DNA from: Candidatus Hydrogenedentota bacterium
Lineage (GTDB): Bacteria > Hydrogenedentota > Hydrogenedentia > Hydrogenedentales > SLHB01
Length of the DNA stretch: 41,199 nt
Direction of reading: 5' to 3'
NCBI GenBank assembly: GCA_016215105.1
Contig: JACRLJ010000130.1
Coordinates: 1 to 41,199 of the forward strand
Part shown: piece after piece, positions 8,100 through 24,058 of the stretch
How the letters are laid out: each line of letters starts with the position of its first letter
Position numbering within the stretch: the stretch's first letter is position 1
Translations under genes and position numbers: made by a program
The notes under the pieces: generated by a model
What the model saw: only the letters and a program-made list of their open reading frames with translations
Told to the model about the DNA's origin: nothing
The model's database searches: none

Positions 8100-8140
8100 C
8101 GTTCAGTCAATCTCCGTATCTATCGTGTTCCGAACGCCAG

Positions 8141-8989
8141 TTATTTCAAGTGGCACTGCAAACATAGGGCGCTTCGCTCGTTGCTCATCACCAATCCGTG
8201 TTTTTGCTTCGAATAGAGTTCATGACAACTGCAGCACCCGAGCTTTCCGCCGAACAGACGTATTCGTGGATCAAGCGACGCCACGTGCCGGTACTGGTTG
8301 GCGCGGCCGGTCCGGGGAGGGTAGTCCACCCCGATAGGGTGGCTGAGCCCGATCCGGGTGTGCTGCCAGCTCATCCCGTTCTCCTCTTCGCCCACGGACT
8401 TGGCTTGGGCGAGCGTGCCGTCGTGACACCCGAGACATTGCACGGACATGTCGTCAAACAACGCGCCCGCGGACGCTTTGTCGCGGACGTTACCCATATG
8501 CGATTTGTCGAGCATACCGCTGTGTGACCCTTGAGTCGCTTTCATCAAGTCATCATGGCACCGCTCACAAAGCGCGCGGCCGGCGGCTTCGCCGCGAATC
8601 ATGTTTCCCGTAACGTTCGTATGCCCCTTGCTGTGCATGTAGTGGCAAGTGGCGCACGTAATCTTGCCCGCCCAGTCCAGCGGGAATTCGGAAGGCGGTT
8701 TCTTGGCGGCCAGAACGTTCGTAGGGTGGGTAAGGCCGGTGTCTACTTTGTGACACTGCCGGCAGATCGTGTCCACGTCTTTGACCAGCTTGACCCGCTC
8801 GCCTTCGACCAATCCCTTTTCCGGGTCATCCAAATGGCAATCCGAGCATGTTCCAGCGCCGTCATGCGGCGATGTTCCTGACTTGCTCATGACGACGGAG
8901 CTAATCGCGAGAATAGCCGAGATACCCAGGAACGCCAAGACTCCCGCGATTCGGTTAGTCCGAATGTGAGCAAGGTTCTTACGATGCAT
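8141..8989 (-). CDS. Membrane-anchored heptaheme c-type cytochrome
   Basis: 282-residue c-type cytochrome with one N-terminal hydrophobic segment (about 14-32, following HRKNLAHIRTNR) acting as signal anchor, then a periplasmic domain with seven CXXCH sites in order: CSDCH, CRQCH, CATCH, CERCH, CLGCH, CCSCH, CLQCH. Many distal histidines (HPTN, HTRIGLSHP, HVAS) could be axial ligands. The CATCHYMHSKGH and CLGCHDGT pieces resemble the doubled-CXXCH group. Likely role: inner-membrane or periplasmic electron carrier passing electrons from the quinone pool or cytochromes to the rightward cytochrome cluster. ATG 8989 is chosen because it directly precedes the basic/hydrophobic leader; an upstream extension reads only arginine-rich antisense of its neighbour. 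It overlaps the HAMP gene by 11 bases, so the two are coupled. Confidence 0.9.
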   Translation of the reverse strand: MHRKNLAHIRTNRIAGVLAFLGISAILAISSVVMSKSGTSPHDGAGTCSDCHLDDPEKGLVEGERVKLVKDVDTICRQCHKVDTGLTHPTNVLAAKKPPSEFPLDWAGKITCATCHYMHSKGHTNVTGNMIRGEAAGRALCERCHDDLMKATQGSHSGMLDKSHMGNVRDKASAGALFDDMSVQCLGCHDGTLAQAKSVGEEENGMSWQHTRIGLSHPIGVDYPPRTGRANQYRHVASLDPRIRLFGGKLGCCSCHELYSKQKHGLVMSNERSALCLQCHLK

Positions 8990-9434
8990 CGGCGTCACCC
9001 GCCAGCGCTGCCGCTTGTCTAAGGCGCTTGGCGTCTTCTTGGATGCGCCGCAACAGGGGTTCCGCCTCCGCCGTGGTCCACGACCTCGTCTTCGCGTCAT
9101 CGACGAGTTGCCGAAGATCCCGCGCGGTGTCCCGTGCGGTGGCTACTCTCTGGCTAACGTCTTCGCGAAGGGCGTCAAAGGCGCCGGGCAGCGATCGATC
9201 CTGATCGCCGCGTCGAAACTGAAGTTTCGCCGTGAGGTCTCCTTGCGCCAGTCCGCGAAGACCATGTTCAAGCCGAATCAGAGGCCCGGCAATTCGGTGC
9301 GAGGCGTATAGGGCGACCCCGGATACCAGAATACCCACCAAGAGGAGCTGGCCCGCGCCGGAGAAGACGCATACCCAGATCAATTCGTGTTCAGTAGTTG
9401 ACGCAGTAAGTTGGTCACGTGGTTCTTGGGACAT
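8979..9434 (-). CDS. HAMP-domain membrane protein
   Basis: 151 residues: short cytoplasmic N terminus, one TM segment (about 19-44, WVCVFSGAGQLLLVGILV), then a HAMP module beginning SHRIAGPLIRLE and running through GDLTAKLQFRRGDQ, then a helical, probably coiled-coil tail (80-150). This is the layout of the second TM, HAMP and linker of a chemoreceptor or kinase with no output domain. GGGAG about 9 bases before ATG 9434 supports the start. It is the first gene of the operon with the heptaheme cytochrome, which overlaps it. A HAMP protein without output beside a heme protein could form a split redox sensor, or may simply assemble or anchor the cytochrome; both are inference. Confidence 0.8.
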   Translation of the reverse strand: MSQEPRDQLTASTTEHELIWVCVFSGAGQLLLVGILVSGVALYASHRIAGPLIRLEHGLRGLAQGDLTAKLQFRRGDQDRSLPGAFDALREDVSQRVATARDTARDLRQLVDDAKTRSWTTAEAEPLLRRIQEDAKRLRQAAALAGDADAS

Positions 9435-10096
9435 TACTCGCGTTCTCCCGCCATTACCCCGGCATAGACAACTGCCTCGCTTCTTCAGTTACACATTCAT
9501 ACGCGCCGGGTATAGGATTGACGCGTCCCCGCTCTTCCCCTGGCACATGCCATCCGCATATAAAACCCCGTAGGTAACCCGATACGTAGCGCTATTCAGA
9601 CTCCTACGCTCCCCAGGGCGCCGGTAGCGCGTATAGTAGAGTATACCATGCACTATTGAAAAATCTACTGTGAAAAGCGACAACACGATCGAAGCTGGCT
9701 TCTGTAGGCTTGAGAAAACGCTGACGGAGTAACCCAGCTTTCTCTAGAGGCGCCATGAAGTGCAAATCCACAAAACTGGATTCACACAATCAGTACGTGT
9801 CCTCCACGTACGACCGAGCGCGGCAATCCGGACGTCTTTCTGAATGGCGTATCTCAATGTTTAATGGGCGCTTATGGCAGGTTCGTCTCCCCGGGCCAGC
9901 GGACTCGGCGTAAGGGTTTTCCCTTACCCCAACTTCGCATGCCTACGTTATTGCCCTGATGTATTCCACTTGATATGCCGACTACACTTGGCTCGTCTAG
10001 GCTGAGAACTTGGGGCTGCGACTTCTTCTGCGGCAGGCGCCGACAACAGAATTTGTCATTGGAAAGTGTCCCATTGTCTGTAATTTGGGAGCTGTC
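9435..10096. other. Divergent intergenic region between two cytochrome operons
   Basis: 662 bases without a convincing gene, separating the leftward HAMP/heptaheme operon from the rightward multiheme operon, so it must hold at least two promoters. Its base composition is more AT-rich in places than the genes. A short minus-strand reading frame at 9604-9789 has no ribosome site or family features. The clearest element is the palindrome at 9910-9927, listed separately. TATACT-like elements occur around 9640-9647 on the minus strand, without a matching -35 box. Confidence 0.6.
9910..9927. promoter_or_regulatory. Perfect palindrome, possible regulator site or hairpin
   Basis: GTAAGGG, TTTT, CCCTTAC: a perfect 7-base inverted repeat with a 4-base centre, about 170 bases upstream of the first rightward cytochrome gene. 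The GGG-N4-CCC core with TA flanks resembles GC-rich palindromes described for NarL-family regulators such as NreC, and a NarL-type regulator is encoded at 26731-27372. It is also a possible RNA hairpin; the tail is CCCC rather than a T run, so it is not a good terminator. Confidence 0.45.
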
Positions 10097-11494
10097 ATGA
10101 GTTTACCGACTCTGCGCATACGGCGTTCAAGAATCAATTTGGGTGGCGCTGTCTTTGGACGGGTGACGCGCGCTACGGTTTGCCTGGCGTCTTTGGCTGC
10201 GGCGTCTCTTCTTTCGCTAACACCGCTTGCGGCGTGGGGCGCGGCGGCTCCCGCGACGATTGACCCCGAAGCATCGTGTACGACTGGCGGATGTCATGCC
10301 GACACGAAAGCAAAACCGAAACTTCACGGACCGGTGGCGGGTGACGCCTGCCAGGGATGTCATGAGCCCAAAGGTAAAGAGCATAACTTCGCAAAAATAA
10401 GCGATATTCCGGCTCTATGCACGAAGTGTCACGACAAAGTTGACGGGGCCGCCAATGTGCATCCGCCCGCCCAGGGAGACTGTTTGGTCTGCCACGACCC
10501 GCACGGCTCGAAGGTTGCGGGAATGCTCAAGGCCGACGATCAAAAGGCGCTGTGCTTCAGTTGCCACGAAGACGCCATTCTAAAAGGGGAGTATCAACAT
10601 GGGCCCGCGGCCGTGGGTGCGTGCAGCGTCTGTCATAATCCCCATTCCTCCGCCCAGGAAAAACTGCTCCGCAGTCCCGGCAATGAACTGTGCGCGACGT
10701 GTCACGCCGACCTCGTCAAAGACATGACGTCGGGCGCCAATGTGCACGAGCCGGTGCGCAAAGGGTGCGTATCGTGTCATAACCCGCACAGTGGTCCGAA
10801 GCCCAAGATGTTGCCAGGCTCGACTCAAGAATTGTGTGCGAAGTGTCACGAGAAACAGGTAAAGGCCGCCAAAGAGTCGGCCGTTCCCCATGGGCCTGCG
10901 GCTGAAGACGGTGGCTGCACCAAATGCCACACCCCGCACGGATCGAACAACAGGCCACTTTTGAAAGCGGCCCAGACAGACCTCTGCGTGGGGTGTCACG
11001 ACAAGCCCCTGGAGGCCGGGAAAACCAAGCTCACGAACATGAAGCAATTGCTCGCCGACAACAAGGAATGGCACGGTCCCATCCGTGACGGTGGATGCAC
11101 GGGGTGTCACGAAGCGCACGGGGGCGCGAATTTCAGGCTATTGAAGCAACCGTATCCCGCTACGTTCTACAGCGCGTACCAGCCGGACAATTATGCGCTG
11201 TGCTTTACGTGCCATGAGCCGATGATGGCGAAGGAAGAGTTCACCAAGACGCTTACCGGTTTCCGTGATGGAGATCGCAATATGCATTTCCTGCATGTGA
11301 ACAAGGCAGACCGCGGACGGACGTGCCGGGCGTGTCACGAAGTTCACGCCAGTACCCACCCGCGCCACATCCGCGAGAGTGTTCCCTACGGCAATTGGAG
11401 TCTACCGATCAACTTCGCAATTACCGAGCAGGGAGGGTCGTGTCAGCCGGGCTGTCACGCCGCCAAGACCTACGACCGAAGCAAAAAGAACTGA
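10097..11494 (+). CDS. Exported multiheme cytochrome c, 13 CXXCH plus CX4CH and CX3CH
   Basis: 465-residue periplasmic or outer-surface cytochrome made of repeated doubled-CXXCH units (pattern LCxxCH ... H.P...G.CxxCH.PHG). Signal peptide about 1-50 with an AWGA-type cleavage site. Thirteen CXXCH sites run from CQGCH to CRACH; they are flanked by CTTGGCH (CX4CH) near residue 60 and CQPGCH (CX3CH) near the C terminus, so up to 15 hemes. Highly spaced HGP and NVH histidines look like axial ligands. GGGAG at 10087-10091, 5 bases before ATG 10097, fixes the start; an upstream in-frame extension lacks signal-peptide character. First gene of the rightward cluster, followed after 37 bases by the thioredoxin-fold/TPR gene. 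Likely role: long-range electron carrier between inner membrane and the porin complex. Confidence 0.92.
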   Translation: MSLPTLRIRRSRINLGGAVFGRVTRATVCLASLAAASLLSLTPLAAWGAAAPATIDPEASCTTGGCHADTKAKPKLHGPVAGDACQGCHEPKGKEHNFAKISDIPALCTKCHDKVDGAANVHPPAQGDCLVCHDPHGSKVAGMLKADDQKALCFSCHEDAILKGEYQHGPAAVGACSVCHNPHSSAQEKLLRSPGNELCATCHADLVKDMTSGANVHEPVRKGCVSCHNPHSGPKPKMLPGSTQELCAKCHEKQVKAAKESAVPHGPAAEDGGCTKCHTPHGSNNRPLLKAAQTDLCVGCHDKPLEAGKTKLTNMKQLLADNKEWHGPIRDGGCTGCHEAHGGANFRLLKQPYPATFYSAYQPDNYALCFTCHEPMMAKEEFTKTLTGFRDGDRNMHFLHVNKADRGRTCRACHEVHASTHPRHIRESVPYGNWSLPINFAITEQGGSCQPGCHAAKTYDRSKKN

Positions 11495-11531
11495 AGATTG
11501 CCGCAGGGCGCCTTGAGTTGGACGGATTGAA

Positions 11532-12515
11532 ATGATGGGCTTGATACAGCTAACCGCGCAGCTTAGCGTCGTCGCGCTGACGACGCTGATGGCGTTCGAG
11601 GGCGTCCGTGAAGGAGACGCGGTACCGGCCTTTAGTCTGAAAAGCACCGACGGGCAGAGCTTCGATTCCACCAAGGAGTTCAACGCTCCGGCCAGTATCA
11701 TCGCCTTCTGCCGCTTGGAGCAGGAGTACTCCGAAGCGCTCCTGAAGGACCTCCAGGGGCTGTATAGTGAGGTCCAGAGCAAGGGCGTGCGGGTGGCGGC
11801 GATTTTCTCGGGCGATGCCGATCCGGCGAAGGTCGCCGAGTTGAAGAAGCGCCTCGATATACAGTTTCCCCTGCTATTGGATTCCGACCGGGCGACATAT
11901 GGGAAGTTTGGCGTGATTGTCGCGCCCGCGACCGGTTTCGTGGACGGCAAAGGTGTTCTGCGCTTCTACTACGCCAACTACCGTCGCGACTTTCCTGACA
12001 CGGCTCGTGCGAACGTCGATCTTCTGTTAGGCAAGATCTCTGAAAGCGAGCGGGCGGACCGAACCAAACCGAAGGCCGCCCCCGAGGCGAACTCGAGCCG
12101 CGCGGGAGCCCACTATCGGCTTGGCCTGCAGTTACTAAAGGCGGGCATGCGTGAAGAGGCCGAAAAGGAGCTGAATCAAGCCTGGAACAGCGAGCCCCGA
12201 TCGGCAGACGCGGGAATCGAACTGGGTCTAGTCTTGCTTCAGGAGAACAAGAACGAAGAGGCATTGAAGGCCCTCACTGACGCCGCGAAGCTGGCTCCAG
12301 ACAGTGCAAAGGCAGGCGGCGCAAGAGGGGTCGCGCTTCTGAGGACGGGTAAGGAAGACGAGGGAAAGGCGTTGCTCGAGCAAGCGATCGGCCAATCCGT
12401 AAAGACTCCACTGCTCTATTTCGAGATGGGCCTGTGGTACGAAAAGCATGGGATGGCGGACAAGGCGGCCGCGTCTTACAGGAAGGGTCTGGAAATAGCC
12501 CTTGAAGGATCGTAA
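11532..12515 (+). CDS. Thioredoxin-fold (AhpC/TlpA-like) plus TPR protein without CXXC
   Basis: 327 residues. A short hydrophobic N terminus (about 5-22) may be a signal or anchor. Residues about 26-165 form a peroxiredoxin/TlpA-like domain (GDAVPAFSLKSTDGQSF, then the beta strand IIAF and later FPLLLDSD, YGKFGV, PATGFVDGKG). Where a CXXC or peroxidatic cysteine is expected, the sequence reads LEQEYSEALL, and the only cysteine I see is C60. So the fold seems kept but the usual redox pair lost. Residues about 185-325 carry around four TPR repeats. Between two cytochrome genes it may act as a scaffold or chaperone for cytochrome assembly; that is inference. ATG 11532 has a weak ribosome site (GGA at 11524-11526). 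Confidence 0.82.
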   Translation: MMGLIQLTAQLSVVALTTLMAFEGVREGDAVPAFSLKSTDGQSFDSTKEFNAPASIIAFCRLEQEYSEALLKDLQGLYSEVQSKGVRVAAIFSGDADPAKVAELKKRLDIQFPLLLDSDRATYGKFGVIVAPATGFVDGKGVLRFYYANYRRDFPDTARANVDLLLGKISESERADRTKPKAAPEANSSRAGAHYRLGLQLLKAGMREEAEKELNQAWNSEPRSADAGIELGLVLLQENKNEEALKALTDAAKLAPDSAKAGGARGVALLRTGKEDEGKALLEQAIGQSVKTPLLYFEMGLWYEKHGMADKAAASYRKGLEIALEGS

Positions 12516-12850: not shown

Positions 12851-13480
12851 ATGTCAAGGAATCGGAAAGGTTTAATGGGAGTAGTCGGGGTAGCCGTCGT
12901 GGCGTTGGCGTTGTGCCTTTCGTCAACGGCTGGAACCATCGCGGGCACTGACCACGACTTCTCGTCGCAGGGATGGAGCAATGGTGAAATCTGCGTAGTA
13001 TGTCACACCCCCCACAATGCGAATACTACGGTAACTGCGGCGCCGTTGTGGAATCACCAAGTCTCGACGGCAACGTATACTGTGTACAGCAGCGGCACGT
13101 TGAATGCGACTGTTGGCCAGCCGGATGGCGCCACGAAGTTGTGCCTTTCCTGCCATGATGGCACGGTAGCGATTGACAGCTTCGGCGGACGGACGGGCAC
13201 GCAGATGATGAGCGGTGGCGCACTGGTTGGCACCAGCCTCTCGAACGACCACCCGGTATCGTTCACCTACGATTCCGCTTTGGCGACGACGGATGCCGGT
13301 CTGAAGAACCCCGCCAGCGCGACGTCGGGTCTGGGCAGCACGATTGCGGCCGACATGCTGGACGGTGGCAAGATGCAGTGCTCCTCGTGCCACGATGTTC
13401 ACAACGGGTCGGGCGTGTCGAAGCTGCTCCTGAAGTCGAATGCCGGTAGTGCGCTGTGCCTTACCTGCCACACCAAGTAG
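12851..13480 (+). CDS. Exported tetraheme cytochrome c (cytochrome c3 / doubled-CXXCH family)
   Basis: 209 residues with signal peptide (about 1-31, LSSTAGTIAG) and four hemes: CVVCHTPHNAN, CLSCHDGTVA, CSSCHDVHNG and CLTCHTK at the very C terminus. Other family marks are GWSNGEIC, PLWNHQVST, TYTVYSSGTLNA and NDHPVSFTYDSAL. It is closely related to the pentaheme protein at 20374 and to the first 210 residues of the protein at 18641. Small tetraheme proteins with this layout include polymerising extracellular cytochromes such as OmcE; whether this one polymerises is speculation. AGGAG ends 10 bases before ATG 12851. It has its own long upstream region and is followed by a strong terminator, so it is probably expressed as a single, perhaps abundant, transcript. 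Confidence 0.9.
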   Translation: MSRNRKGLMGVVGVAVVALALCLSSTAGTIAGTDHDFSSQGWSNGEICVVCHTPHNANTTVTAAPLWNHQVSTATYTVYSSGTLNATVGQPDGATKLCLSCHDGTVAIDSFGGRTGTQMMSGGALVGTSLSNDHPVSFTYDSALATTDAGLKNPASATSGLGSTIAADMLDGGKMQCSSCHDVHNGSGVSKLLLKSNAGSALCLTCHTK

Positions 13481-13513
13481 GTTTGTGTTGTTAGTGTAGG
13501 ACTCAATTCTCGA

Positions 13514-13556
13514 AAGGGCAGCGGGCGTGCCTAGGTGGCGCTCCGCTGCCTTTTCG
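13514..13556 (+). terminator. Intrinsic terminator after the tetraheme gene
   Basis: GGCAGCGG (13517-13524) pairs perfectly with CCGCTGCC (13543-13550), followed by TTTT and further T-rich sequence; the stem can extend through the AAA before it. Lies 34 bases after the stop codon. Confidence 0.8.
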
Positions 13557-13650
13557 TCTTGCCTTTTCGATGGACCGGCGTATACACTCCCGCCGCCGCG
13601 GTGGCAGCGGCTCCAGGATGCGGGTTCACATAATGACGAAGGAGAAGCAG

Positions 13651-14922
13651 GTGTTGGGTGCAGAACGACAAGAGCGCGCGGGAAGATATGTTTGGGCAAC
13701 ACGGTCAAGACGGTCGTGTCTAGTGACTGCGCTGTGTGTGATTCTTTTCGGCTTGTCAACGGTGCTTTCCGTCGCGCGGGCCGCGGAGGAAAAGGCGGCC
13801 ACCCCTGAAAAGGCCACAGAAGAAAAGGCTGCCACCCCCGAAAAGGCTGCCGAAGTAAAAGCCGCCAAGCCCGAAAAGGCTTCAGAAGAAAAGGCCGCCA
13901 AGCCCGAGAAGACCGCCAAGAAAGACAAAGAGAAGGCCGCGCCGTCGGGGCCGATCTTTTATCCCCAGGCTCCCGAGCAACCCCGCATACAGTTTCTTCG
14001 CACCTTCAGCAGCGCGAAGGACATCAAGGCCAAGGCCAGCGGGTTCAAGAAGTTCATCGTCGGTGAGGAAGAGAAAGACGAGTCGATCACGAAAGCCTAT
14101 GGAATTGCGGTCAAGAACGGTACGATTTACGTCTGTGATTCGGGGCAGAACCGAATCGCTGCGTTTGATCTAAAGGCGAAGACACTCGAATACTTTGGCA
14201 AGGGGGCATCCAGTTCGCTGAAGAAGCCCATTAACATAGCCGTGGATTCGGAAGGCTTTAGCTACGTGGCGGACAAGGGGTTGAACTGCGTGATGGTCTA
14301 TGACTCCAACGGCCAATACGCGCGCGCCCTAGGGGACTCCAAGAAGATGGGTCCCACGGACGTTGCGCTCCTGGAAGACCAACTCTACGTCTGCGATCTT
14401 GACAACGCGCAAGTGGTCATCATGGACAAGAAGACCGGACAGGAGCAGCGCCGCATTGGCAGCAAGGGGAGCGGCGATGGCCAACTATTCCAGCCGACGA
14501 ACATCGCAGTGGACGGCGACGGAAACGTATTTGTCTCTGATACCGGCAACTCGCGAGTGGTGCGCTTTGACTCGCGTGGTAATTTTGTCAAGAAGGTCGG
14601 GGAGATCGGCATAACCCCGGGCCGGTTCGTGCGCACCAAAGGCATTGCGGTGGACCGGGCCCGCCGGCGCTACGTGGTGGATGCCGCGTTCGAGAACGTC
14701 CAGCTCTTTGATCCGGAAGGGAATCTGCTGTTGTTTTTCGGAGAACCCGGCAACGTACCCGGCGGCTTGAATCTTCCGGCCAAAGTGATCGTGGACTACG
14801 ACAATGTGGATTTGTTCAAGAGCAACGTGGCCCCGGGTCACGCGCTCGAATATCTGATTTTGGTCAGCAGTAATTTCGGCGTCAACAAAGTCAACGTGTA
14901 CGGCTTCTTGAAGGAGAAGTAA
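13651..14922 (+). CDS. Exported NHL-type beta-propeller with repeat linker
   Basis: About 423 residues. Signal peptide (about 1-44) with a long basic start (RYVWATRSRRS) and VARAA cleavage region; then four 11-residue EEKAATPEKA-like repeats and a lysine-rich segment; then FYPQAPEQPRIQFLRTFSSA and a six-bladed NHL propeller (YGIAVKNGTIYVCDSGQNRI, NIAVDSEGFSYVADK, and similar). The segment DAAFENVQLFD is identical in the lipoprotein propeller at 17580, showing the two are paralogues. The start is GTG 13651, because GAAGGAG at 13638-13644 sits 6 bases upstream; ATG 13633 is possible but has no such site. The pentaheme lipoprotein follows 4 bases after its stop. Propellers of this kind probably bind protein partners; a structural role in the porin-cytochrome complex is inferred. 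Confidence 0.87.
   Translation: MLGAERQERAGRYVWATRSRRSCLVTALCVILFGLSTVLSVARAAEEKAATPEKATEEKAATPEKAAEVKAAKPEKASEEKAAKPEKTAKKDKEKAAPSGPIFYPQAPEQPRIQFLRTFSSAKDIKAKASGFKKFIVGEEEKDESITKAYGIAVKNGTIYVCDSGQNRIAAFDLKAKTLEYFGKGASSSLKKPINIAVDSEGFSYVADKGLNCVMVYDSNGQYARALGDSKKMGPTDVALLEDQLYVCDLDNAQVVIMDKKTGQEQRRIGSKGSGDGQLFQPTNIAVDGDGNVFVSDTGNSRVVRFDSRGNFVKKVGEIGITPGRFVRTKGIAVDRARRRYVVDAAFENVQLFDPEGNLLLFFGEPGNVPGGLNLPAKVIVDYDNVDLFKSNVAPGHALEYLILVSSNFGVNKVNVYGFLKEK
13786..13917 (+). repeat. 33-base tandem repeat, four copies, coding for 11-residue Lys/Glu/Ala/Pro units
   Basis: Four consecutive in-frame 33-base units encode EEKAATPEKAT, EEKAATPEKAA, EVKAAKPEKAS and EEKAAKPEKTA. The units form a charged, proline-punctuated linker between the signal peptide and the propeller. 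Copy number could vary by slippage between strains. Confidence 0.9.
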
Positions 14923-14926
14923 CTGC

Positions 14927-15520
14927 GTGGAGCGAGTCCCCAAAAGGACGGCAAGGAACTTCGCATGGGTGATGATCTTGAAACGGCTGGGATTGGCGAT
15001 GGCGCTGGTGGCCGGGAGTGTTGCGCTCGGCGCCGGATGCGCGACTCCGGAAGCCCGTTATCACGCGTTATCGGTCTTCTTCGACGGTGTGCCGGAGCCG
15101 GGCGCTGCGCCGGCTGTGGCGCCGCAGAAAACGGGAGATGCGGAGCCGGCTGCGCCCGCGCCTCAGTTTTCCCTGCACCCGCCGTACGCCGATAGAAAAT
15201 GTGATCTGTGCCACGAAAACCAATTTTCGAATCATTTGAAGATGGAGAAGTCGCTGCTGTGCGGGTCGTGTCACCAGTCGGACCAATTTACAGGCAAAGT
15301 TGTTCACGGTCCGGTGTCGTCGGGCAATTGTTACGCGTGTCACGATCCACACAAGTCACAGTATCCGCATCTGTTGCTGGAAGAGGGCTCGGCAATTTGC
15401 GGACGCTGTCATACGCCGGAGAGTTTTGAGAACCTGGAACGCCATCGTTCGGAAAAAGGCGGTGATTGCCTCAGTTGCCATACGCCCCATTCGGGTGAAA
15501 AAGAGCGCTTGCTCAAGTAG
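14927..15520 (+). CDS. Pentaheme c-type cytochrome lipoprotein
   Basis: 197 residues. The leader ends in the lipobox GAGC (cysteine near residue 38), so it should be lipid-anchored, probably in the outer membrane. Then ALSVFFDGVPEPG, a motif I recognise as common in cytochromes next to porin-like genes, a proline/alanine linker, and five CXXCH sites: CDLCHENQ, CGSCHQSD, CYACHDPHKS, CGRCHTPE, CLSCHTPHSG. The start shown is GTG 14927 with AAGGAG at 14911-14916; ATG 14972 (MILKRLGLAMAL) would give a shorter, more usual lipoprotein leader. It lies between the repeat-linker propeller and the beta-barrel gene (64 bases on), the place where porin-cytochrome operons encode the heme protein that plugs the barrel. 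Confidence 0.9.
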   Translation: MERVPKRTARNFAWVMILKRLGLAMALVAGSVALGAGCATPEARYHALSVFFDGVPEPGAAPAVAPQKTGDAEPAAPAPQFSLHPPYADRKCDLCHENQFSNHLKMEKSLLCGSCHQSDQFTGKVVHGPVSSGNCYACHDPHKSQYPHLLLEEGSAICGRCHTPESFENLERHRSEKGGDCLSCHTPHSGEKERLLK

Positions 15521-15584
15521 TCCGGGACTCCGCCAGGCCAGTTGTTGAAGCACGCACATAGAAGGAACGCGGAGTCAGAAGGCG

Positions 15585-17534
15585 GTGTCGCGAAAGTTTG
15601 GCATAGTCATTTGGGCGCTGGTGATGGGCGGACTGAACGCGCCCGCCCAGGAAGTGCGTCCATTTGCGCTGACGGATATCAGCGGCCATTTTGAATTGCG
15701 TCTAAGGAGTGAACAAGAGTCGAGAATGCGTCAGGAATCGGCTACATCGTGGGAATCGGAAGAGTTGCAGATACGCGAAGGACTGCGTCTCGACTTGGAC
15801 GGCTACGTGTACCATCCCCGCTTCGTGAAATTTCAAGTGGGCGGACTTTTCGAGGGCGTCCAAGATCAGATCTCGGAATCGGGTGTAGACACCGAGCGCA
15901 ACAGCTTTCCTCTGAGCGGTGACTTCAATTTAACTTTTCTGGAGCAACACAAGGACACCTTAACCTTGTACGGCAGCCGAAAAGAGTTGGATGTCCACCA
16001 GGCGTTCGCCCGCACGTTTCCTCTTCAGAGCAATTCATTCGGGGCCTCGCTGAGCATTCGGAACTGGGAGAGCGTTCCCGTCGAGGTGTCCTATAGCCAC
16101 AATTCACAACAGGGAAGTGGCGCCGGGTCGGACATTAACCAGACCGATGACACGTTCGCCATTCGGACCCGCTATCACATTGGCGAGCGTTCCGAAGGGG
16201 ATGCGGAATACAGCATAACCCGGACCGAAGATCTGGCTTTTCTCCGGCTCTTCGAGTTTCAGCAAATCACCCTTAATAACACGACCTATCTGGACAACGA
16301 TCGCAAAATCCGGCTTACGGGGTTCGTTCGCGTGTTTGACCAAAGCGGCGACACGAATCTAACGACGTTCTCGGCCCGTGAGACACTTGATTGGCGGCAT
16401 ACCGATCGCCTGCAAACGCGTTATTACGTCATCTACGACGACACCGAGACCGGGGGCCAAAAAGTACAAGTTTGGGACACGGGCGCTTCGCTGACGCATC
16501 GGCTGTATGAAAGCCTGCAGACGAACGCCGGCGCATACGTGCGTTTCGAGGAAGCTAGCTTCGGTACCAGCACGACATACGGGGGCACACTGACGGAGGA
16601 CTATACCAAGAAACTTGGTGATTGGGGGCAATTGGGACTCGCGGCGCGCGGCTCCACCGAGATTATCGAGACCCAGCGGACTCAGACGACCGCGACGGTC
16701 AAGGGGGAGACGCACGTCTTGACGAGGGGTGAACCGGTGACCCTCGGTCATTCCGGTATAGACACCACATCCATCGTCGTCACGGACGAACGGGGAGTGC
16801 GAATCTACTCTCTTGCTCGGGACTATACGATCGTGCCCATCAGTGACCCACCGCAAATTCTACCTCTAGCGCTCGGAAACATACCGGACGGAGCTACGGT
16901 CAAGGTCAACTACCGGTACAACCTTTCGGGAAGCGGCACGGTTCTCACGAAGGGTGGCGAATTCGATGCGCGCCTCCGAGTCGGGCAGTGGTTGTCGGTC
17001 TACGGACGATACGGCAGAACGGAACAGAGCCAAGTCGAGGGTATCCCTGCCACGCGGCTGGAGTCGCTGCAGCAGTACGCGGTGGGCGGAGTGGTGACAT
17101 GGCGCTGGGTGACGGTTGGGGCTGAATACGAAGACCGCGAGTCTGTCTTTTCCCCGTCTACCTCGCTCTCGGAATGGGTGTCGGTATCCGGAACACTCTG
17201 GCGCCGCGTCCAGGCGCAAATCTCCGCGTCCCATCGCGAATCCACCTTTGGCGAACTCACTGGACGGACACTCGAGACGCTGGACGTGAACGCGATGCTG
17301 AGCGCGCAGATAACGGACCGGAGCCAAGTGACGATGGAAGCCGAATACCGGCAGCAAACCTGGGACTTCACCAACAGTTCCAACAACCTCGAGGGGTACG
17401 GCGTGCGAATGGGCTACTCCTGGCGCTACCGCAAGGTGGCGGTGGAGGCCAACGCGCGTCTTTCCAAGGTCGAGCAGCGAGGGCAGCAGGAAGAACAGAA
17501 CCGCTTTGATCTCGTTGTGCGAAGGGATTTCTAG
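15585..17534 (+). CDS. Outer-membrane beta-barrel, porin of a porin-cytochrome complex
   Basis: 649 residues: signal peptide (about 1-22, ending NAPAQ), then alternating hydrophilic/hydrophobic strands throughout with many Tyr/Trp/Arg-rich segments (LRLRSEQESRMR, RLDLDGYVYHPRF, WRYRKVAVEANARL) and a C-terminal phenylalanine in FDLVVRRDF, the usual outer-membrane barrel end signal. No plug or TonB box is visible, and the size would allow roughly 22-28 strands. Lying between a pentaheme lipoprotein and a propeller/multiheme pair, it is the best candidate for the barrel that sheathes a cytochrome across the outer membrane. The start is GTG 15585, with GGAG 10 bases upstream. There is no clear sequence similarity that I can name to MtrB or Geobacter OmbB, so orthology is not claimed. 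Confidence 0.85.
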   Translation: MSRKFGIVIWALVMGGLNAPAQEVRPFALTDISGHFELRLRSEQESRMRQESATSWESEELQIREGLRLDLDGYVYHPRFVKFQVGGLFEGVQDQISESGVDTERNSFPLSGDFNLTFLEQHKDTLTLYGSRKELDVHQAFARTFPLQSNSFGASLSIRNWESVPVEVSYSHNSQQGSGAGSDINQTDDTFAIRTRYHIGERSEGDAEYSITRTEDLAFLRLFEFQQITLNNTTYLDNDRKIRLTGFVRVFDQSGDTNLTTFSARETLDWRHTDRLQTRYYVIYDDTETGGQKVQVWDTGASLTHRLYESLQTNAGAYVRFEEASFGTSTTYGGTLTEDYTKKLGDWGQLGLAARGSTEIIETQRTQTTATVKGETHVLTRGEPVTLGHSGIDTTSIVVTDERGVRIYSLARDYTIVPISDPPQILPLALGNIPDGATVKVNYRYNLSGSGTVLTKGGEFDARLRVGQWLSVYGRYGRTEQSQVEGIPATRLESLQQYAVGGVVTWRWVTVGAEYEDRESVFSPSTSLSEWVSVSGTLWRRVQAQISASHRESTFGELTGRTLETLDVNAMLSAQITDRSQVTMEAEYRQQTWDFTNSSNNLEGYGVRMGYSWRYRKVAVEANARLSKVEQRGQQEEQNRFDLVVRRDF

Positions 17535-17579
17535 TAACGTGACGGACAATATGCGTGAGCGCCCAAGTGGAGAGTCAGG

Positions 17580-18641
17580 ATGAGCTCCGTATCCATACGA
17601 TCTGGTTCGAGAATCGTTGTGGCGGGTCTGTTTACAGCGGCGCTACTGACAGCGCTTTCGTGTCAGAACTTGCAGAAGACCACGGTAACCTGGGATACGC
17701 CTCCCGTGCAACTGGTTTGGCCGCAGCCCCCGGATCAGCCGCGTATCCAATGGCTGGGTTCCATTCACTCCGCAGCGGACATTGGTCAAAGCCGCGCCGT
17801 CGGGCAGGGGATAGTGGAACTGGTGTTCGGTAAGAAAGAGACAGATCTGGTTAAGCCCGTGGCGGTGGCAAAGAACAGCGCGGGGTTGCTTGTGGTGGCG
17901 GACCCCGGCGTTCCTACGGTGCATTTCTTTGACTTGGCGCAGAAGAAATACACGCGTCCCAAGCAGAAGCATTCGGCGTTGCTTCAGTCCCCCGTCGGAG
18001 TCGCCGTGTCAGATGACGGCGCAGTTTATGTCGCCGATTCTGTATCGAACGAGATTCTGGTCTTCAACGTCAAGGGCGAGTTGGTGAGTCAGTTCGGCAA
18101 GGGTATCTTGACGCGACCCACCGGGCTCGCGCTCAACGCGGCTCAGGATAGGCTTTTCGCGGTAGACACCGTGGGCAATCAGGTGGTGACGTTTGACCGC
18201 GCAGGAGGTAAGCTCAGCGCGTTTGGGCGGCGCGGCAACCAGCCAGGAGAATTCAACTACCCGACCTACGTCGCCACTACTCCATCTGGAGCGCTCTGCA
18301 TTTCGGATTCCCTCAATTTCCGGGTCCAGACATTTCAGCCCGACGGCACGCTGGTCACCAGTCTTGGTCAAGCGGGCGATGTGGCGGGTTCATTCACCCG
18401 GCCCAAGGGCGTGGCAAGCGATTCGGAAGGTCGCTTCTATATCGTGGACGCCGCATTCGAAAATGTTCAATTGTTCGACACGAAGGGGGCTTTTCTGTTG
18501 GCTTTTGGGGGATCAGGGAAAGGTCCAGGCGAATTCTGCCTGCCTGCCGCGCTTCACGTCGATTCAACCAACACGATTTGGGTGGCAGACTCTTTCAATC
18601 AGCGCGTGCAGGTCTTCCGTTTGTTGGAGAACTCGGTGTAA
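17580..18641 (+). CDS. Lipoprotein NHL beta-propeller
   Basis: 353 residues. Signal peptide with lipobox LTALSC (cysteine near 28) and then the conserved WPQPPDQPRIQWLGSIHSA segment, matching PQAPEQPRIQFL in the propeller at 13651. Six NHL blades follow (VGVAVSDDGAVYVADSVSNE, THGLAL-like repeats, GVASDSEGRFYIVDAAFENV, LHVDSTNTIWVADSFNQRV). Single cysteines besides the lipobox are not in heme motifs. GGAG 7 bases before ATG 17580 fixes the start. Its stop TAA shares one base with the ATG of the 12-heme cytochrome (TAATG), so the two are translationally coupled. It is likely an outer-membrane-anchored scaffold for the cytochromes; no enzymatic residues are visible. Confidence 0.88.
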   Translation: MSSVSIRSGSRIVVAGLFTAALLTALSCQNLQKTTVTWDTPPVQLVWPQPPDQPRIQWLGSIHSAADIGQSRAVGQGIVELVFGKKETDLVKPVAVAKNSAGLLVVADPGVPTVHFFDLAQKKYTRPKQKHSALLQSPVGVAVSDDGAVYVADSVSNEILVFNVKGELVSQFGKGILTRPTGLALNAAQDRLFAVDTVGNQVVTFDRAGGKLSAFGRRGNQPGEFNYPTYVATTPSGALCISDSLNFRVQTFQPDGTLVTSLGQAGDVAGSFTRPKGVASDSEGRFYIVDAAFENVQLFDTKGAFLLAFGGSGKGPGEFCLPAALHVDSTNTIWVADSFNQRVQVFRLLENSV

Positions 18642-20338
18642 TGATTCACCACAAGATGTTCGCTTTACTATTGATTGCCGTGACGCTGGGTCTCTCCGGC
18701 TCCGTGGCTTCTGCAGGGATTGTCAACACCAAGCATAATCTCTCCGCTACCGGGCCCGGTACCGTCAAAGCCCCCAGCGAGAGCGAGGTGTGTATCTTTT
18801 GCCACACCCCTCACAATTCCTCTCCAACCGTACCGTTGTGGAATCGTAATCTGCCGGTCCTCAATTACACGCCCTATTCCAGTTCGACGATGCAGTCCTC
18901 GCCGGGCCAGCCCACCCACGCGTCCAAACTGTGCCTCAGTTGCCACGATGGAACCATCGCGCTGGGTTCGGTGTTGAGCCGCCCCACCCCCATTTCGGTG
19001 TCGGGTTCCCTCTCGAACAAAGCCAATCTGGGAACAAATCTATCCGACGACCATCCCGTTTCATTCGCCTATGATTCCGCACTGGCGGCCAAGAACACCG
19101 AATTGGTCAATCCGGCCTTGCTCACTGGCAGCGTTCACTTGGACTCGCACGGCCAGCTTCAATGTACGACCTGCCATGATCCGCATTCCGATACCTATTC
19201 GAAGTTCTTGGTAGTGGACGGCTCCAACGGAGCCCTCTGCACCAAGTGCCATACCAAGTCCGGATGGACCGGCAGCGCGCACGCGACCTCTATTGCAACC
19301 TGGAACGGGATGGGTACAACCCCTTGGCCTCATACTACGTGGACGACGGTGGCGGCCAACGGTTGCGAGAATTGCCATGCGCCTCACGCCGCCGGTACGG
19401 CAAAGGAACTGCTGAACTATTCCACCGAGGAAGGAAACTGTCTTCCATGCCATAACGGTAACGTGGATCGCAAGAACATCTCCAATGAAGTGGCGAAGCC
19501 CTACCGGCATTCCTCATCGGCCTACTTTCAAGTACACGACCCGGTCGAGAACTTTTCAATGATGGCGCGTCACGTCGAGTGCCAGGACTGCCACAACCCG
19601 CACGCGGCCGTCGCCGGTACCGCCACCGCGCCGAACGTGAGCGGTCCGCTTACGAAGGTCGCCGGGGTAACGATGGCGGGGACGCGCACGGCAAATTCCA
19701 ACTACCAGTACGAAGTGTGTCTCCGCTGCCACGCGGATAACGCCAACGTTCCGGCGCCGAATATTGCTCGGGTAATTTTGCAGCCCAATATCCGATTGAA
19801 ACTGCAAACCACCAATCCCTCGTTTCACCCGGTGCTAGGTCCGAGAAACAATACCGAAGTCACCAGCCTGATTTCGCCGTGGACCTCGTCGTCGTGGGTG
19901 TACTGCACGGACTGCCACAACAATGACTCCGGCCCGGGAGCGGGTGGTACAGGGCCGCGGGGTCCGCATGGCTCGACGTGGCGCTACCTCTTGGAGCGTC
20001 AGTATCTCACTGCGGATAACACCACCGAAAGCGTTCAGGCGTACGCCCTGTGTTACAAATGTCATGACCGCGCGAAGATTCTCGGGGACCAGACATTCCG
20101 CTACCACAACAAGCATATTGTAGGCGAACGGGCTCCGTGTTCGGCGTGTCATGACGCTCACGGGATCAGTTCCACCCAGGGTAACGCGACAAATAACTCG
20201 AATCTAATCAACTTCGACAAAACCATTGTCCTCAAAGAAACGTCAACGCAACGACTGGAGTTTCGAGATACGGGAGTGCGCCGAGGGCAGTGCTATCTGC
20301 TCTGTCATGGCGAAGCGCACAATCCATACAGCTATTGA
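18641..20338 (+). CDS. Exported multiheme cytochrome c, 11 CXXCH plus CX3CH
   Basis: 565 residues with signal peptide (about 1-25, GSVASAG). The first 210 residues repeat the tetraheme module seen at 12851 and 20374 (CIFCHTPHNSS, CLSCHDGTIA, DDHPVSFAYDSAL, CTTCHDPH, CTKCH). A long C-terminal half adds CENCHAPH, CLPCHNG, CQDCHNPH, CLRCHAD, CTDCHNND, CYKCHDR, CSACHDAH and the odd CYLLCHGEAH (CX3CH) near the end. That makes 11 canonical sites and one atypical one. ATG 18641 overlaps the upstream stop; a longer in-frame start inside the propeller gene lacks a signal peptide. The heme number, size and export suggest an extracellular or periplasmic conduit partner of the barrel. The tetraheme head may dock onto, or be exchangeable with, the small tetraheme proteins. 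Confidence 0.92.
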   Translation: MIHHKMFALLLIAVTLGLSGSVASAGIVNTKHNLSATGPGTVKAPSESEVCIFCHTPHNSSPTVPLWNRNLPVLNYTPYSSSTMQSSPGQPTHASKLCLSCHDGTIALGSVLSRPTPISVSGSLSNKANLGTNLSDDHPVSFAYDSALAAKNTELVNPALLTGSVHLDSHGQLQCTTCHDPHSDTYSKFLVVDGSNGALCTKCHTKSGWTGSAHATSIATWNGMGTTPWPHTTWTTVAANGCENCHAPHAAGTAKELLNYSTEEGNCLPCHNGNVDRKNISNEVAKPYRHSSSAYFQVHDPVENFSMMARHVECQDCHNPHAAVAGTATAPNVSGPLTKVAGVTMAGTRTANSNYQYEVCLRCHADNANVPAPNIARVILQPNIRLKLQTTNPSFHPVLGPRNNTEVTSLISPWTSSSWVYCTDCHNNDSGPGAGGTGPRGPHGSTWRYLLERQYLTADNTTESVQAYALCYKCHDRAKILGDQTFRYHNKHIVGERAPCSACHDAHGISSTQGNATNNSNLINFDKTIVLKETSTQRLEFRDTGVRRGQCYLLCHGEAHNPYSY

Positions 20339-20373
20339 TAGTTGAAACGGCTTTTCGATAAAGGAGAGTGCTC

Positions 20374-21039
20374 GTGAGAAAGATCATATCTGTCATCGTA
20401 ATTGCGTTGCTTCTGCAAGTCGCGGTTACCTCGCCCGTTTTGGGCGGCATAAGCCAGTCCCACCATGACTACAGCCGCGCGGGTTGGAGCGGCGGCGAAA
20501 TCTGTATCGTGTGTCACACGCCGCACAATGCCAATACGACGGTCGCGGACGCGCCCTTGTGGAATCGCGAAGTTAGCACGGCCACTTACACCGTGTACAC
20601 CAGTTCAACATTGAACGCCCTGCCCGGCCAGCCCAGCGGAAGTTCCAAGCTCTGTCTGTCGTGTCACGACGGGACCATAGCCGTTGACAGTTTCGCAGGG
20701 AAGACCGGTACCCGCTTTGCCGATTTCGGGAATTTCGGCACGGATCTTTCTCGACATCATCCAATCTCTTTTGCCTACGATAGCGCCTTGGCGTCCGAGG
20801 ACGGCAAACTTCACAACCCCGCGACAAAGGACTCGGGTCTCGGCGGAACCATCGAAACGGATCTGTTGGTAGACGGCCAACTCGAATGCACTTCGTGCCA
20901 TGACGTGCATGTTTCGCGCCATAGCGCGGGATGCGCCGGTTGCCACGCCGGTTCCGGTCATCCGTTCACAACGCGAAGTCTCTCGTTGAGGAAATCCAAT
21001 GCGGGCAGCGCGCTTTGTCTTACGTGCCATGCCAAATAA
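20374..21039 (+). CDS. Exported pentaheme cytochrome c, paralogue of the tetraheme protein
   Basis: 221 residues, signal peptide about 1-25 (SPVLGG). It keeps all four sites of the tetraheme family (CIVCHTPHNAN, CLSCHDGTIA, CTSCHDVH, C-terminal CLTCHAK) and has one additional heme motif, CAGCHAGSGH, inside a 20-residue insertion before the last site. GWSGGEIC, PLWNREVST and TYTVYTSSTLNA are nearly the same as in the 12851 protein. GTG 20374 is preferred because AAGGAG at 20361-20366 lies 7 bases upstream; GTG 20368 is also in frame. It follows the 12-heme gene by 35 bases and precedes the fusion cytochrome gene by 79, so it is probably in the same transcript. The insertion could alter heme packing or the subunit interface. 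Confidence 0.9.
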   Translation: MRKIISVIVIALLLQVAVTSPVLGGISQSHHDYSRAGWSGGEICIVCHTPHNANTTVADAPLWNREVSTATYTVYTSSTLNALPGQPSGSSKLCLSCHDGTIAVDSFAGKTGTRFADFGNFGTDLSRHHPISFAYDSALASEDGKLHNPATKDSGLGGTIETDLLVDGQLECTSCHDVHVSRHSAGCAGCHAGSGHPFTTRSLSLRKSNAGSALCLTCHAK

Positions 21040-21118
21040 GGGGATCAAAGTGCGGCGATCTGATAGAGCGGTCAATACGATACTACCGAAAATTGCGCGG
21101 AAAGGCGCGAGAGGACCT

Positions 21119-24058
21119 ATGAGATTAATCGCTGAGTTTGCGCTCCGGCGCTGTGTAGCGTACGTGCTCCTTGTGGCGGTCGTGGCTGCGGGCAATGCAG
21201 TGGCATTCGCCCAGGATGGAGCGCCGCGACCTCACCCCTATCAGTTGTCTGCGCCGGTGCGGATCACGTTTACTTCAGCCGGGGCCGTGCTGGTGTCCGA
21301 CCACCGGCTTCAGAAGATCCTGACGCTTGACAAGAACACCCTCGAACTTCGGAATGAATTCACTATCGCCGGAAGTCCGTCGGGGCTTGCCGTCGGCAAC
21401 GGCTTCTACTACGTGGGAAACGAGTCGGCAAAGCGCGTCGAGGTATACGATCAAGCCGGGACGTGGCAATACAATCTTGGCGGCGACTACACCATTCAAC
21501 AGCCGAACGATATCTCCGTGGACGCATCGAGCGGCCAGGTTTTCGTAGTTGACACCCAGAAGCGATGTGTCCGCGTGTTCGGGCGCGATGGGGCGTACGT
21601 GCGCTCGATTCCCGCTGGCGCCGCCGATCCGCTCGTGCTGGCCAACCCGACATGTGTCGCTTTGGACGAGACCCGCCAGGAAGTATTGGTCAGCGATTTC
21701 GGCGCGGAGGAAGCGAGCATTGGAGCGCGAGTCCAGATATTCAAGTACGATGGAACATATGCCGCCACGATTGCCGGAACGGACGCGGACCAGGGGACCC
21801 GGTTTTCCCGGCCGCAGGGGCTGGCCGCCGATGGGTACGGCCACGTGTTTCTCGTGGATAGTCTCTCCGGGTTGCTCCTCATTCTCGACCGAGAGACGGG
21901 CAAGCAATTGGGCAAATTCGGCGCCTTCGGCTCCGGCCCCGGCCAGTTGCTTCTACCCCTCGACCTTGTCATTGACCCCGTCTCCAAGGACGTTCTCGTT
22001 ACGAACAACCGGGCTCAGCGCATCGAAGTGTTCAACCAAGTGGCGGCGCAAGTTGCGGTTTCCCATGTAGGGGATGTCGACCTGTCAGGTTCCGCGAACG
22101 CAGTTGACGTGCAACTGGTGATCAATAAGGCGCTTGGCCTTGACATTGCCGGCAAGTACTATTGCGATGTTGATCAGTCCGGAAGTGTCGATGCCGTCGA
22201 CGTGCAACTCGTTACAAACGCCGCGTTGGGGCTCGTCATTGGCGCCAAAGGCAAAGCGGAAGGTTCGCCCGCCAAACCCGTAAGCACTACAAAAATGGCG
22301 CATGGAGTTTCGTCTCCAGCGACGGCCGGCGATTGGACGATGCTTGCGCTGGCTGGCGCGGTTATGATCGGTCGCTCGCGTGCGGGGTCAGGTCGAGCTG
22401 CGCGATGGGCGCGGCGGCCAAAGGTCGGGCGCCTTCTTGTGCCGGCCCTCATGGCGGGGATGTTCGCGGCTTCATCAGTGGCCTACGCCCAGACTTCTGT
22501 GCACGAATGCACGTACTGCCACGGTGTTTGGGAGCCTGGCGGACAGACCTTGTTGCACAACGCCGAGGTCGAAGTTCTCTGTCTTACCTGCCACGGTCCC
22601 GGCGGTATCTCGGTCCTCAAAGCCGATGTCCACACGAATCACGCGGGTAGCTCGCAGACGTTCCGCATGACCTGCACGGACTGCCACGACACGTACAACA
22701 ATCAGTTGAACTGGCACGGGGGCACGAACCTCAAGCTGGTCCTCTCCGAAATCGCGACGCCGAATAACGGCCCCCAGCAGGTAGCGTTCGAGAGTCTTGG
22801 CTCGACGGCCGGCGGCGCCACGCTGCATTCATTTGCTGACAACGACGAAGACGGTGACGGAATCTATGACGGCGTTTGCGAAACATGCCACACGCTCACC
22901 GGCAATCATCGCAACAACAGTACGGGCAACCATGCTCACTATGCGGGCCAGAACTGCACGTCGTGCCACCCGCATGACGGCTCCTTCTTGCCGGCGGGAG
23001 GCGCCTGCGACTCCTGTCACGGCGCGCCCCCAGCCACCGGGGCCCACTTGAAGCACTTTGGCGGCGTGGCCGGCTTGGCTACGTACGGTGGCGTCGAGAA
23101 TCTCTCGACCTCGACCGACTACGTATTCGATTGCGGCTCCTGTCACCCGATATCGTTCGACAAACACCGGAACGGCGTGGTGGATATTGAGCTCTACAAC
23201 GCTGCAGCGCCCGCCACGAGTTTGAAGGCCAGAAATCCGTCCAATGCATCCTACGTTCCTGGACAGACCACCTTCACCGACTCGAACGGGATCGACTACT
23301 CGCTTGGAACGTGTTCGAATGTCTATTGCCATAGCAAGACCAGTTGGTCTTCCCCGAACCCGATTTCTGATCCGCTGGTTGATTCTCTAACCGGTATATA
23401 CATCGGGGATGCCAACGGCAATCTTACGTACAACCCCTACACAGTCACGCAAAGCACCATCTATACCTCAATGGGGTGGGGCGACTCTCCGCTTACCTGC
23501 AACGGATGCCACCGCAACGGACCACAAAACTCGGCTCCGGGAGTCCAGGCCGGGGTCGGCGATTCCCACTCCTGGATAGATGAATACGGCTACGATAACC
23601 TTCATGCGTGGAATATGGGTTTTGATCCTCTGACGTGCCGAACGTGCCACTACGATACCGTGACCTCGAGCATGACGTGGACCCGCGATGCCAACGGTGT
23701 AGCTACGTACAGCGATGTTCCCATTGCCAATAAGGCAAAGCATGTCAATGGCGCAAAGGACGTTGCGTTTGATCGGATCGACCCAGTTGTCTACAACAGC
23801 ACGTTCAGTCTTGCGGCCAGTACGTACAACCCGGCGGACAAGACGTGTTCTTCCGTGCCTTGCCACGTGAGTCAAGCGAGACCGCAATGGGGTAAGCCCT
23901 ATCGTTGGTACACCAACGAATGCGACTACTGCCATCAATACAGCGGGAAGTTCCCGCCACCGCCTGCAAAGGCGGCTCTGGCGCCACATAAAGTGTCGCC
24001 AATCCATGCAGCTCCAGTGGCGCAAGACTGCAAGAAGTGCCACAGCGGAATTCGCTGA
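21119..24058 (+). CDS. Propeller-dockerin-multiheme cytochrome fusion protein
   Basis: 979 residues in one frame. Order: signal peptide (1-31, NAVAFAQ); NHL propeller (about 35-315); two dockerin-like calcium loops (GDVDLSGSANAVD near 318, CDVDQSGSVDAVD near 348); a short hydrophobic stretch with arginines (GDWTMLALAGAVMIGRSRAG, about 404-423) that looks like a C-terminal sorting signal; a basic segment and second hydrophobic stretch ending SSVAYAQ (about 438-458) that looks like a fresh signal peptide; then a heme domain with 11 CXXCH (CTYCH to CKKCH) and two CX4CH (CSNVYCH, CSSVPCH). CSNVYCH followed by CNGCH is the CxxxxCH...CXXCH pattern described from Geobacter. ATG 21119 has GAGGA just upstream. 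No stop or frameshift is visible at the junction. Read as one polypeptide, both functional halves would lie outside the membrane with the basic loop inside. Confidence 0.85.
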   Translation: MRLIAEFALRRCVAYVLLVAVVAAGNAVAFAQDGAPRPHPYQLSAPVRITFTSAGAVLVSDHRLQKILTLDKNTLELRNEFTIAGSPSGLAVGNGFYYVGNESAKRVEVYDQAGTWQYNLGGDYTIQQPNDISVDASSGQVFVVDTQKRCVRVFGRDGAYVRSIPAGAADPLVLANPTCVALDETRQEVLVSDFGAEEASIGARVQIFKYDGTYAATIAGTDADQGTRFSRPQGLAADGYGHVFLVDSLSGLLLILDRETGKQLGKFGAFGSGPGQLLLPLDLVIDPVSKDVLVTNNRAQRIEVFNQVAAQVAVSHVGDVDLSGSANAVDVQLVINKALGLDIAGKYYCDVDQSGSVDAVDVQLVTNAALGLVIGAKGKAEGSPAKPVSTTKMAHGVSSPATAGDWTMLALAGAVMIGRSRAGSGRAARWARRPKVGRLLVPALMAGMFAASSVAYAQTSVHECTYCHGVWEPGGQTLLHNAEVEVLCLTCHGPGGISVLKADVHTNHAGSSQTFRMTCTDCHDTYNNQLNWHGGTNLKLVLSEIATPNNGPQQVAFESLGSTAGGATLHSFADNDEDGDGIYDGVCETCHTLTGNHRNNSTGNHAHYAGQNCTSCHPHDGSFLPAGGACDSCHGAPPATGAHLKHFGGVAGLATYGGVENLSTSTDYVFDCGSCHPISFDKHRNGVVDIELYNAAAPATSLKARNPSNASYVPGQTTFTDSNGIDYSLGTCSNVYCHSKTSWSSPNPISDPLVDSLTGIYIGDANGNLTYNPYTVTQSTIYTSMGWGDSPLTCNGCHRNGPQNSAPGVQAGVGDSHSWIDEYGYDNLHAWNMGFDPLTCRTCHYDTVTSSMTWTRDANGVATYSDVPIANKAKHVNGAKDVAFDRIDPVVYNSTFSLAASTYNPADKTCSSVPCHVSQARPQWGKPYRWYTNECDYCHQYSGKFPPPPAKAALAPHKVSPIHAAPVAQDCKKCHSGIR

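Follow-up and report, generated by a model that had tools for sequence, protein, structure and literature searches.

The window analysed here is a stretch of 41,199 nucleotides that makes up one whole contig (C88, JACRLJ010000130.1) of the 6.7 Mb draft genome of a Candidatus Hydrogenedentota bacterium (GCA_016215105.1). It carries a locus of multiheme cytochromes, propellers and one beta-barrel; the nearest relatives of the barrel in public records are labelled Candidatus Hydrogenedentota. This locus probably encodes an OmcE-type cytochrome nanowire together with a dedicated outer-membrane conduit, the wire being joined to the conduit by a protein fused to an OmcE-like domain. Homologies, conservation of heme ligands, gene order in three phyla and co-occurrence of the genes are the observations on which this reading is based. 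A first-pass annotation had proposed a candidate extracellular electron transfer (EET) system. The conduit part of that proposal stands, but its OmcE core had been overlooked: the presence of three OmcE-family proteins turns the "conduit" into a candidate conduit with its own putative nanowire. The genes of the main cassette are the following.

10010-11494, plus strand: 15-heme cytochrome, soluble periplasmic type (13 CxxCH, one CxxxxCH and one CxxxCH; seven Paired_CXXCH_1 matches)
11532-12515, plus strand: exported AhpC/TSA-TPR protein (Pfam)
12851-13480, plus strand: tetraheme OmcE-family cytochrome, candidate filament subunit (OmcE homology, His conservation)
13570-14922, plus strand: NHL six-bladed propeller 1 (NHL1), exported (Pfam; orthologues in the cassette)
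14927-15520, plus strand: pentaheme lipoprotein with a conserved FFDGVP motif (lipobox Cys; MtrA match)
15585-17534, plus strand: outer-membrane beta-barrel of 649 amino acids with an inserted immunoglobulin (Ig)-like domain (AlphaFold2; MtrB Z-score; NF052337)
17580-18641, plus strand: NHL propeller 2 (NHL2), lipoprotein (Pfam; lipobox-like Cys conserved in orthologues)
18641-20338, plus strand: 12-heme cytochrome with an OmcE-like N-terminal domain and an 8-heme extension, candidate wire base or adaptor (more likely start, 18641)
20368-21039, plus strand: 5-heme OmcE-family variant with an extra CxxCH insert (7tfs_A match)
20999-24058, plus strand: NHL propeller, dockerin and 11-13-heme cytochrome in one frame (likely start, 21119)

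Heme motifs and OmcE-family proteins

The seven c-type cytochromes, one of which is encoded upstream on the minus strand, carry 7 (8141-8989), 13 (10010-11494), 4 (12851-13480), 5 (14927-15520), 11 (18641-20338), 5 (20368-21039) and 11 (20999-24058) CxxCH motifs. These 56 motifs and five non-canonical CxxxCH or CxxxxCH ones (CTTGGCH, CQPGCH, CYLLCH, CSNVYCH and CSSVPCH) give exactly the 56-61 hemes counted in the first-pass annotation. By comparison, when the residues of these seven proteins were shuffled, CxxCH motifs numbered 0.36 on average and 3 at most (500 trials). The non-canonical motifs look real because they are kept in orthologues across three phyla, the 13+2 set being shared by most orthologues of the 15-heme protein and the 11+1 set by nearly all those of the 12-heme protein. 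Across 13 sequences of the latter, drawn from three phyla, none of the 12 heme sites varies.

The tetraheme protein aligns with OmcE, the filament cytochrome of Geobacter sulfurreducens (7TFS; chain 7tfs_A, E 7.8e-23), over positions 12-209 of its 209 residues, and with the OmcE-like structure 9YUQ (chain 9yuq_N, E 5e-28) over its full length. This full-length homology places it in the OmcE family, as do its four CxxCH motifs and four distal His, all in register with OmcE, although identity over the alignment is only about 40%. Four heme-binding His and four further ones (36, 56, 135 and 185 in the numbering of the open reading frame, ORF) are shared by at least 51 of 52 OmcE-type domains, OmcE included. 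The best identity with OmcE, 53%, is found at a locus from the Myxococcota (L022).

Two other proteins belong to the same family. The 5-heme protein also matches 7tfs_A (E 5e-19) and 9yuq_N over its full length and constitutes a separate conserved paralogue; the related genomes G011, G030 and G047 each encode one, with 64-65% identity, on other contigs. The profile of the 12-heme family (A3) matches 7tfs_A (E 6e-44) and 9yuq_N (E 2e-35) through its positions 9-210 only, so that the OmcE-like part corresponds to the N-terminal third of the protein. In the phylogenetic tree, the fused domains of the 9- and 12-heme proteins (support 99/96) separate from the free subunits (89/60). This is consistent with the 9/12-heme proteins deriving from one old fusion that was kept in three phyla.

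Homologues of a filament protein need not polymerise. The OmcE-like proteins could accordingly be monomeric surface or periplasmic carriers that never polymerise, beside a system that would be a porin-cytochrome conduit only. This appears improbable given that the eight ligand His match those of OmcE one to one, and that in OmcE the second His ligand of one heme is provided by the neighbouring subunit (PMC12954529, PMC9473688). Furthermore, genomes of three phyla have the free subunit along with the OmcE-fused protein.

The barrel and its cytochrome partners

Pfam (NHL) and AlphaFold2 agree with the first-pass annotation on one beta-barrel and two propellers. The AlphaFold2 model of the barrel, built from 15 sequences, has about 28 strands, with a predicted local distance difference test (pLDDT) of 84.8 and a predicted template modelling score (pTM) of 0.67. 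A small Ig-like domain is inserted at about residues 380-450; counting back from the C-terminal strand, it would face the outside of the cell. The best structural alignment of the model is with MtrB from the Shewanella MtrAB complex (6R2Q), with a Z-score of 19.2 over 443 residues (model residues 24-649) and a root-mean-square deviation (rmsd) of 9.2. Among the listed matches, the top Foldseek TM-score (0.46) also belongs to MtrB.

This likeness does not extend to the sequence. There is no MtrB/PioB model among the curated family matches of the barrel, which by sequence belongs to no curated porin family, and its profile has no match at E<=1 among PDB sequences. Residues 363-467 match NF052337, an NCBIfam phage tail tube model (E 5.5e-10), although the match falls short of the cut-off of this model. 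The inserted domain alone also yields weak matches in unrelated genomes; those in G075 and G167 were discarded, as they cover the Ig-like insert only and have no cytochromes nearby.

In the pentaheme protein, a lipobox Cys and the FFDGVP motif that follows it are both conserved; behind this anchor, the number of hemes varies from 3 to 21 among orthologues. The closest relative of the pentaheme protein among solved structures is MtrA (E 7e-6), which is chain A of the Mtr complex and bears the PDB label "Cystathionine beta-synthase". In the same way, the best solved relative of the 15-heme protein is MtrA (6r2q_A, E 2.7e-16). In some Verrucomicrobiota, the pentaheme protein is replaced by a single lipoprotein of up to 21 hemes that strongly matches the 15-heme model. 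Both cytochromes of the window score below the cut-off of the MtrA/DmsE decaheme family TIGR03508 (149 bits for the 15-heme and 38.5 bits for the pentaheme protein against 192 bits). The earlier statement that the locus has no obvious orthologue of MtrCAB thus holds at the family level, both for the barrel and for the cytochromes. Another difference from MtrAB is that the lipoprotein cytochrome has 5 hemes whereas MtrA is a soluble decaheme protein; moreover, there is no MtrC here.

The cassette in three phyla and a proposed wire-and-conduit model

The first-pass annotation had suggested looking for the same gene order in other genomes. With models built from Hydrogenedentota proteins, 32 loci were scored and the cassette was found to recur in Hydrogenedentota, Verrucomicrobiota and Myxococcota. 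Its usual order is 4-heme protein, NHL1, lipoprotein cytochrome, barrel, NHL2 and OmcE-fused 12-heme protein. In each of the 27 loci whose sequence extends far enough, the barrel gene is closely followed by one for an OmcE-fused 9- or 12-heme protein. The 15-heme and AhpC/TSA-TPR genes lie beside the cassette in many of the 32 loci. The latter gene, whose product had been described as scaffold-like, is the neighbour of the 15-heme gene in G011, G030, G047 and G061, as well as in some of the Myxococcota and Verrucomicrobiota.

A multiheme cytochrome gene, usually encoding an MtrA-like lipoprotein, directly precedes that of the barrel in 25 loci, and cytochromes are present at all full-length barrel loci examined. 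The barrel therefore adjoins a multiheme cytochrome across genomes, as in a Pcc-type cluster, in line with the porin-cytochrome logic proposed initially; a barrel never found next to cytochrome genes would have spoken against it. The barrel could instead be a secretion or assembly pore for the OmcE-like filaments, comparable to the channel-like OscEFG, with lipoproteins and propellers as assembly factors and electrons reaching the wire by another path. For the OmcS wires of Geobacter, it has been proposed that propellers and channel-like proteins carry out shaping and secretion (PMC13194489). Usher and LptD barrels also rank high in the Foldseek search, and the co-occurrence of the barrel and OmcE-like genes speaks for such a role as well. 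This alternative is nevertheless considered unlikely: the upstream cytochrome counts against a pure secretion pore, which needs none, and Pfam scans found no OscH-like peptidyl-prolyl isomerase (PPIase) in the locus.

Co-occurrence was assessed by searching the same genome sets for the barrel and for OmcE-like proteins, only strong matches being counted and some of these being cut by contig ends. Both were found in 5 of 68 Hydrogenedentota, in the same genomes (Fisher p 1e-7), and in 6 of 289 Verrucomicrobiota, again in the same genomes (p 1e-12). In Myxococcota, 15 of 284 genomes have the barrel and 17 have OmcE-like proteins, all 15 being among the 17 (p 4e-23); all these counts and p values ignore phylogeny. 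Two Myxococcota have an OmcE-like protein and no barrel match. In G200, the OmcE-like gene adjoins a weak barrel-like fragment (16.6 bits) at the end of a contig, while in G238 17-heme and 12-heme genes flank an unassigned gap of 1.4 kb.

Some Myxococcota genomes carry the barrel locus in two copies. L062 and L063 (G069 and G068) are second, divergent barrel loci with an extra cytochrome of 5-6 CxxCH and 3-4 CxxxCH or CxxxxCH motifs. Among the database records of loci L021 and L018, "Nitrospiraceae" OTbin.67 appears to be the same contig as that of G011, from the window's own family, and "Proteobacteria Glo_12" falls in the Myxococcota genome sample.

We infer from the gene set that the subunits polymerise, that a heme protein occupies the barrel and that the 12-heme protein serves for docking; the direction of flow is deduced in the same way. 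Inner-membrane or periplasmic donors, including the heptaheme unit, would pass electrons to the 15-heme protein, a periplasmic wire bridging the periplasm to the lipid-anchored pentaheme protein. The latter would be seated in the MtrB-like barrel and cross it to reach the 12-heme protein at the surface. There, the 8-heme part of this protein would meet the conduit whereas its OmcE-like domain would offer an interface to the filament end, from which polymerised tetraheme subunits would lead to an extracellular acceptor. Electrons could flow along this chain or in the reverse direction. The 5-heme form might be a variant, tip or branch of the wire, the NHL propellers, one of them a lipoprotein, could help secretion or assembly at the surface, and a two-component pair would set expression. 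More tentatively, the 12-heme protein is possibly a dedicated nanowire base whose heme chain plugs into the cytochrome-filled barrel, so that the wire would grow from, be anchored to and be charged by its own conduit, in a module common to three phyla.

Besides co-occurrence statistics blind to phylogeny and a barrel that could serve secretion, several points weigh against the wire-and-conduit reading. FhuA ties with MtrB on Z-score (19.0 against 19.2), so that an MtrB-like role is supported, not proven; this tie and the high rmsd of the MtrB alignment also make a heme protein within the pore less certain. Five hemes are few for crossing the outer membrane. The AlphaFold2 model of the 12-heme protein has a pLDDT of only 32, and its docking role is thus argued from domain fusion and gene order. 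Finally, the system is known here through its genes, and a counterpart may exist in Geobacter, the genome searches having covered Hydrogenedentota, Verrucomicrobiota and Myxococcota.

Flanking genes and comparison with known systems

The locus is wider than the 8141-24058 segment initially delimited. It also includes a trio of genes on the minus strand (7497-9434) and, at 25290-27372, a two-component pair, both groups having homologues at related loci. The flanking genes are the following.

7497-8099, minus strand: two-transmembrane (two-TM) membrane protein of 200 amino acids, third gene of the trio (hydropathy)
8141-8989, minus strand: heptaheme cytochrome with an N-terminal signal or anchor (7 CxxCH; more likely start, 8989)
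8979-9434, minus strand: two-TM protein related to HAMP-like proteins, first gene of the trio
24253-25293, plus strand: PhnD-type substrate-binding protein (Pfam)
25290-26756, plus strand: sensor histidine kinase (sCache, HAMP; Pfam)
26668-27372, plus strand: LuxR-type response regulator (Pfam)

In three other Hydrogenedentota, the trio (two-TM, 7-heme, two-TM) lies between the barrel and NHL2 genes, whereas in the window it is found upstream on the minus strand. The product of 7497-8099 matches at 28-33% the proteins adjoining the 7-heme gene in G011, G030 and G047, and that of 8979-9434 matches L016:8192-8866 and L015:8127-8894 at 38-39%. The sensor kinase matches at 40-41% the kinases that accompany the cassette in G047 and the 5-heme module in G030, and the response regulator has matches of 52% in G047 and 58% in G030. 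In G030, a separate locus holds 5-heme, propeller and 13-heme genes with a homologous two-component pair, while the window has their counterparts joined to the main cassette.

The PhnD-type protein has no homologue at the relatives' loci examined and is not tied to the system. Its gene overlaps the start of the kinase gene by 4 bases; the protein is perhaps a component through which the sensor binds its ligand, and among the genomes examined it is specific to this one. A scan for sigma-70 promoters gave fewer sites than expected by chance and its result was not used.

Frame 20999-24058 had been read as a third propeller fused to a cytochrome. It is indeed one open frame, but a single protein is doubtful: it may encode two, because a tail resembling C-terminal sorting signals and then a new signal peptide occur in mid-frame (about 22319-22500), and because the propeller (384 amino acids) and the cytochrome (748 amino acids) are separate neighbouring ORFs in G030. 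The dockerin-like pieces of this frame match many places in the window's genome and in related genomes.

For cytochrome c maturation, the organism has one or more genes of the ResB family. In G047 (L016:14614-17734), ResB and CcsA genes (System II cytochrome c maturation) follow the cassette and precede the two-component pair. Contig C43 of the window's own genome carries a second, different multiheme cluster (L017:580-15697), with ORFs of 4, 14, 8, 11, 19, 10 and 5 CxxCH, in which no match to the barrel family of the window was found.

By the tests run, the system would work like MtrAB combined with OmcE; it is a member of the OmcE cytochrome family only, and is not MtrCAB, OetABI/osc or the Geobacter Pcc set. 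Even with respect to OmcE, it differs in that the 4-heme protein, whose polymerisation is predicted from sequence, sits here with a barrel, propellers and an OmcE-fused 12-heme protein.

The OetABI/osc clusters of Geobacter and syntrophic sulfate reducers likewise associate a wire cytochrome, propellers and channel-like partners (PMC10553843, PMC5539420, PMC13194489). These clusters are built around a PPIase and cytochromes of 16 and 26 hemes (PMC5539420), with an OmcS-type wire. No PPIase was found by Pfam scans of the window genes and of the relatives' extra genes, and no 16- or 26-heme cytochromes are present in the window (7, 15, 4, 5, 12, 5 and 11-13 hemes). OmcS is not listed among the phmmer matches, the wire candidate being of OmcE type. 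The first idea, that the locus was a Geobacter osc/Oet cluster, was dropped on these grounds. The Geobacter Pcc conduits (OmbB/OmaB/OmcB, Ext) and OmcK/OmcL share a general porin-cytochrome logic with the locus. The 15-heme protein weakly matches the OmcK/GSU2203 family NF041028, but its 115.5 bits fall well short of the curated cut-off (325 bits). The distinction from these Geobacter systems is drawn from gene content and curated family models.

It is very improbable that the locus is simply the porin-multiheme system reported from Verrucomicrobia (He et al. 2017, PMC5615132) and spread to this phylum. In the available text, that cluster associates a porin of at least 20 strands with an adjoining 8-heme cytochrome, in humic-rich anoxic settings, a likeness to the large barrel beside a multiheme cytochrome described here. 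However, the same text names no propeller or OmcE-like protein and states that the genomes concerned lack surface cytochromes with homology to the Geobacter ones. The 2017 clusters, compared by description only, may be related to the present system.

No description of a combined wire and conduit was found in the literature searched, key subscription papers lying outside its scope. Even in Geobacter, the connection between extracellular cytochrome filaments and the cell interior is described as poorly understood (PMC10553843). In the present case, the genes for the candidate wire subunit, the OmcE-fused adaptor, the barrel and the lipoprotein cytochrome are co-inherited in three phyla, which makes the joint between wire and conduit amenable to reconstitution and testing. 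The association of an OmcE-fused 9/12-heme protein, a barrel and an FFDGVP lipoprotein also provides a gene signature for finding wired bacteria, and the locus extends OmcE-type wires and probable EET to the Hydrogenedentota.

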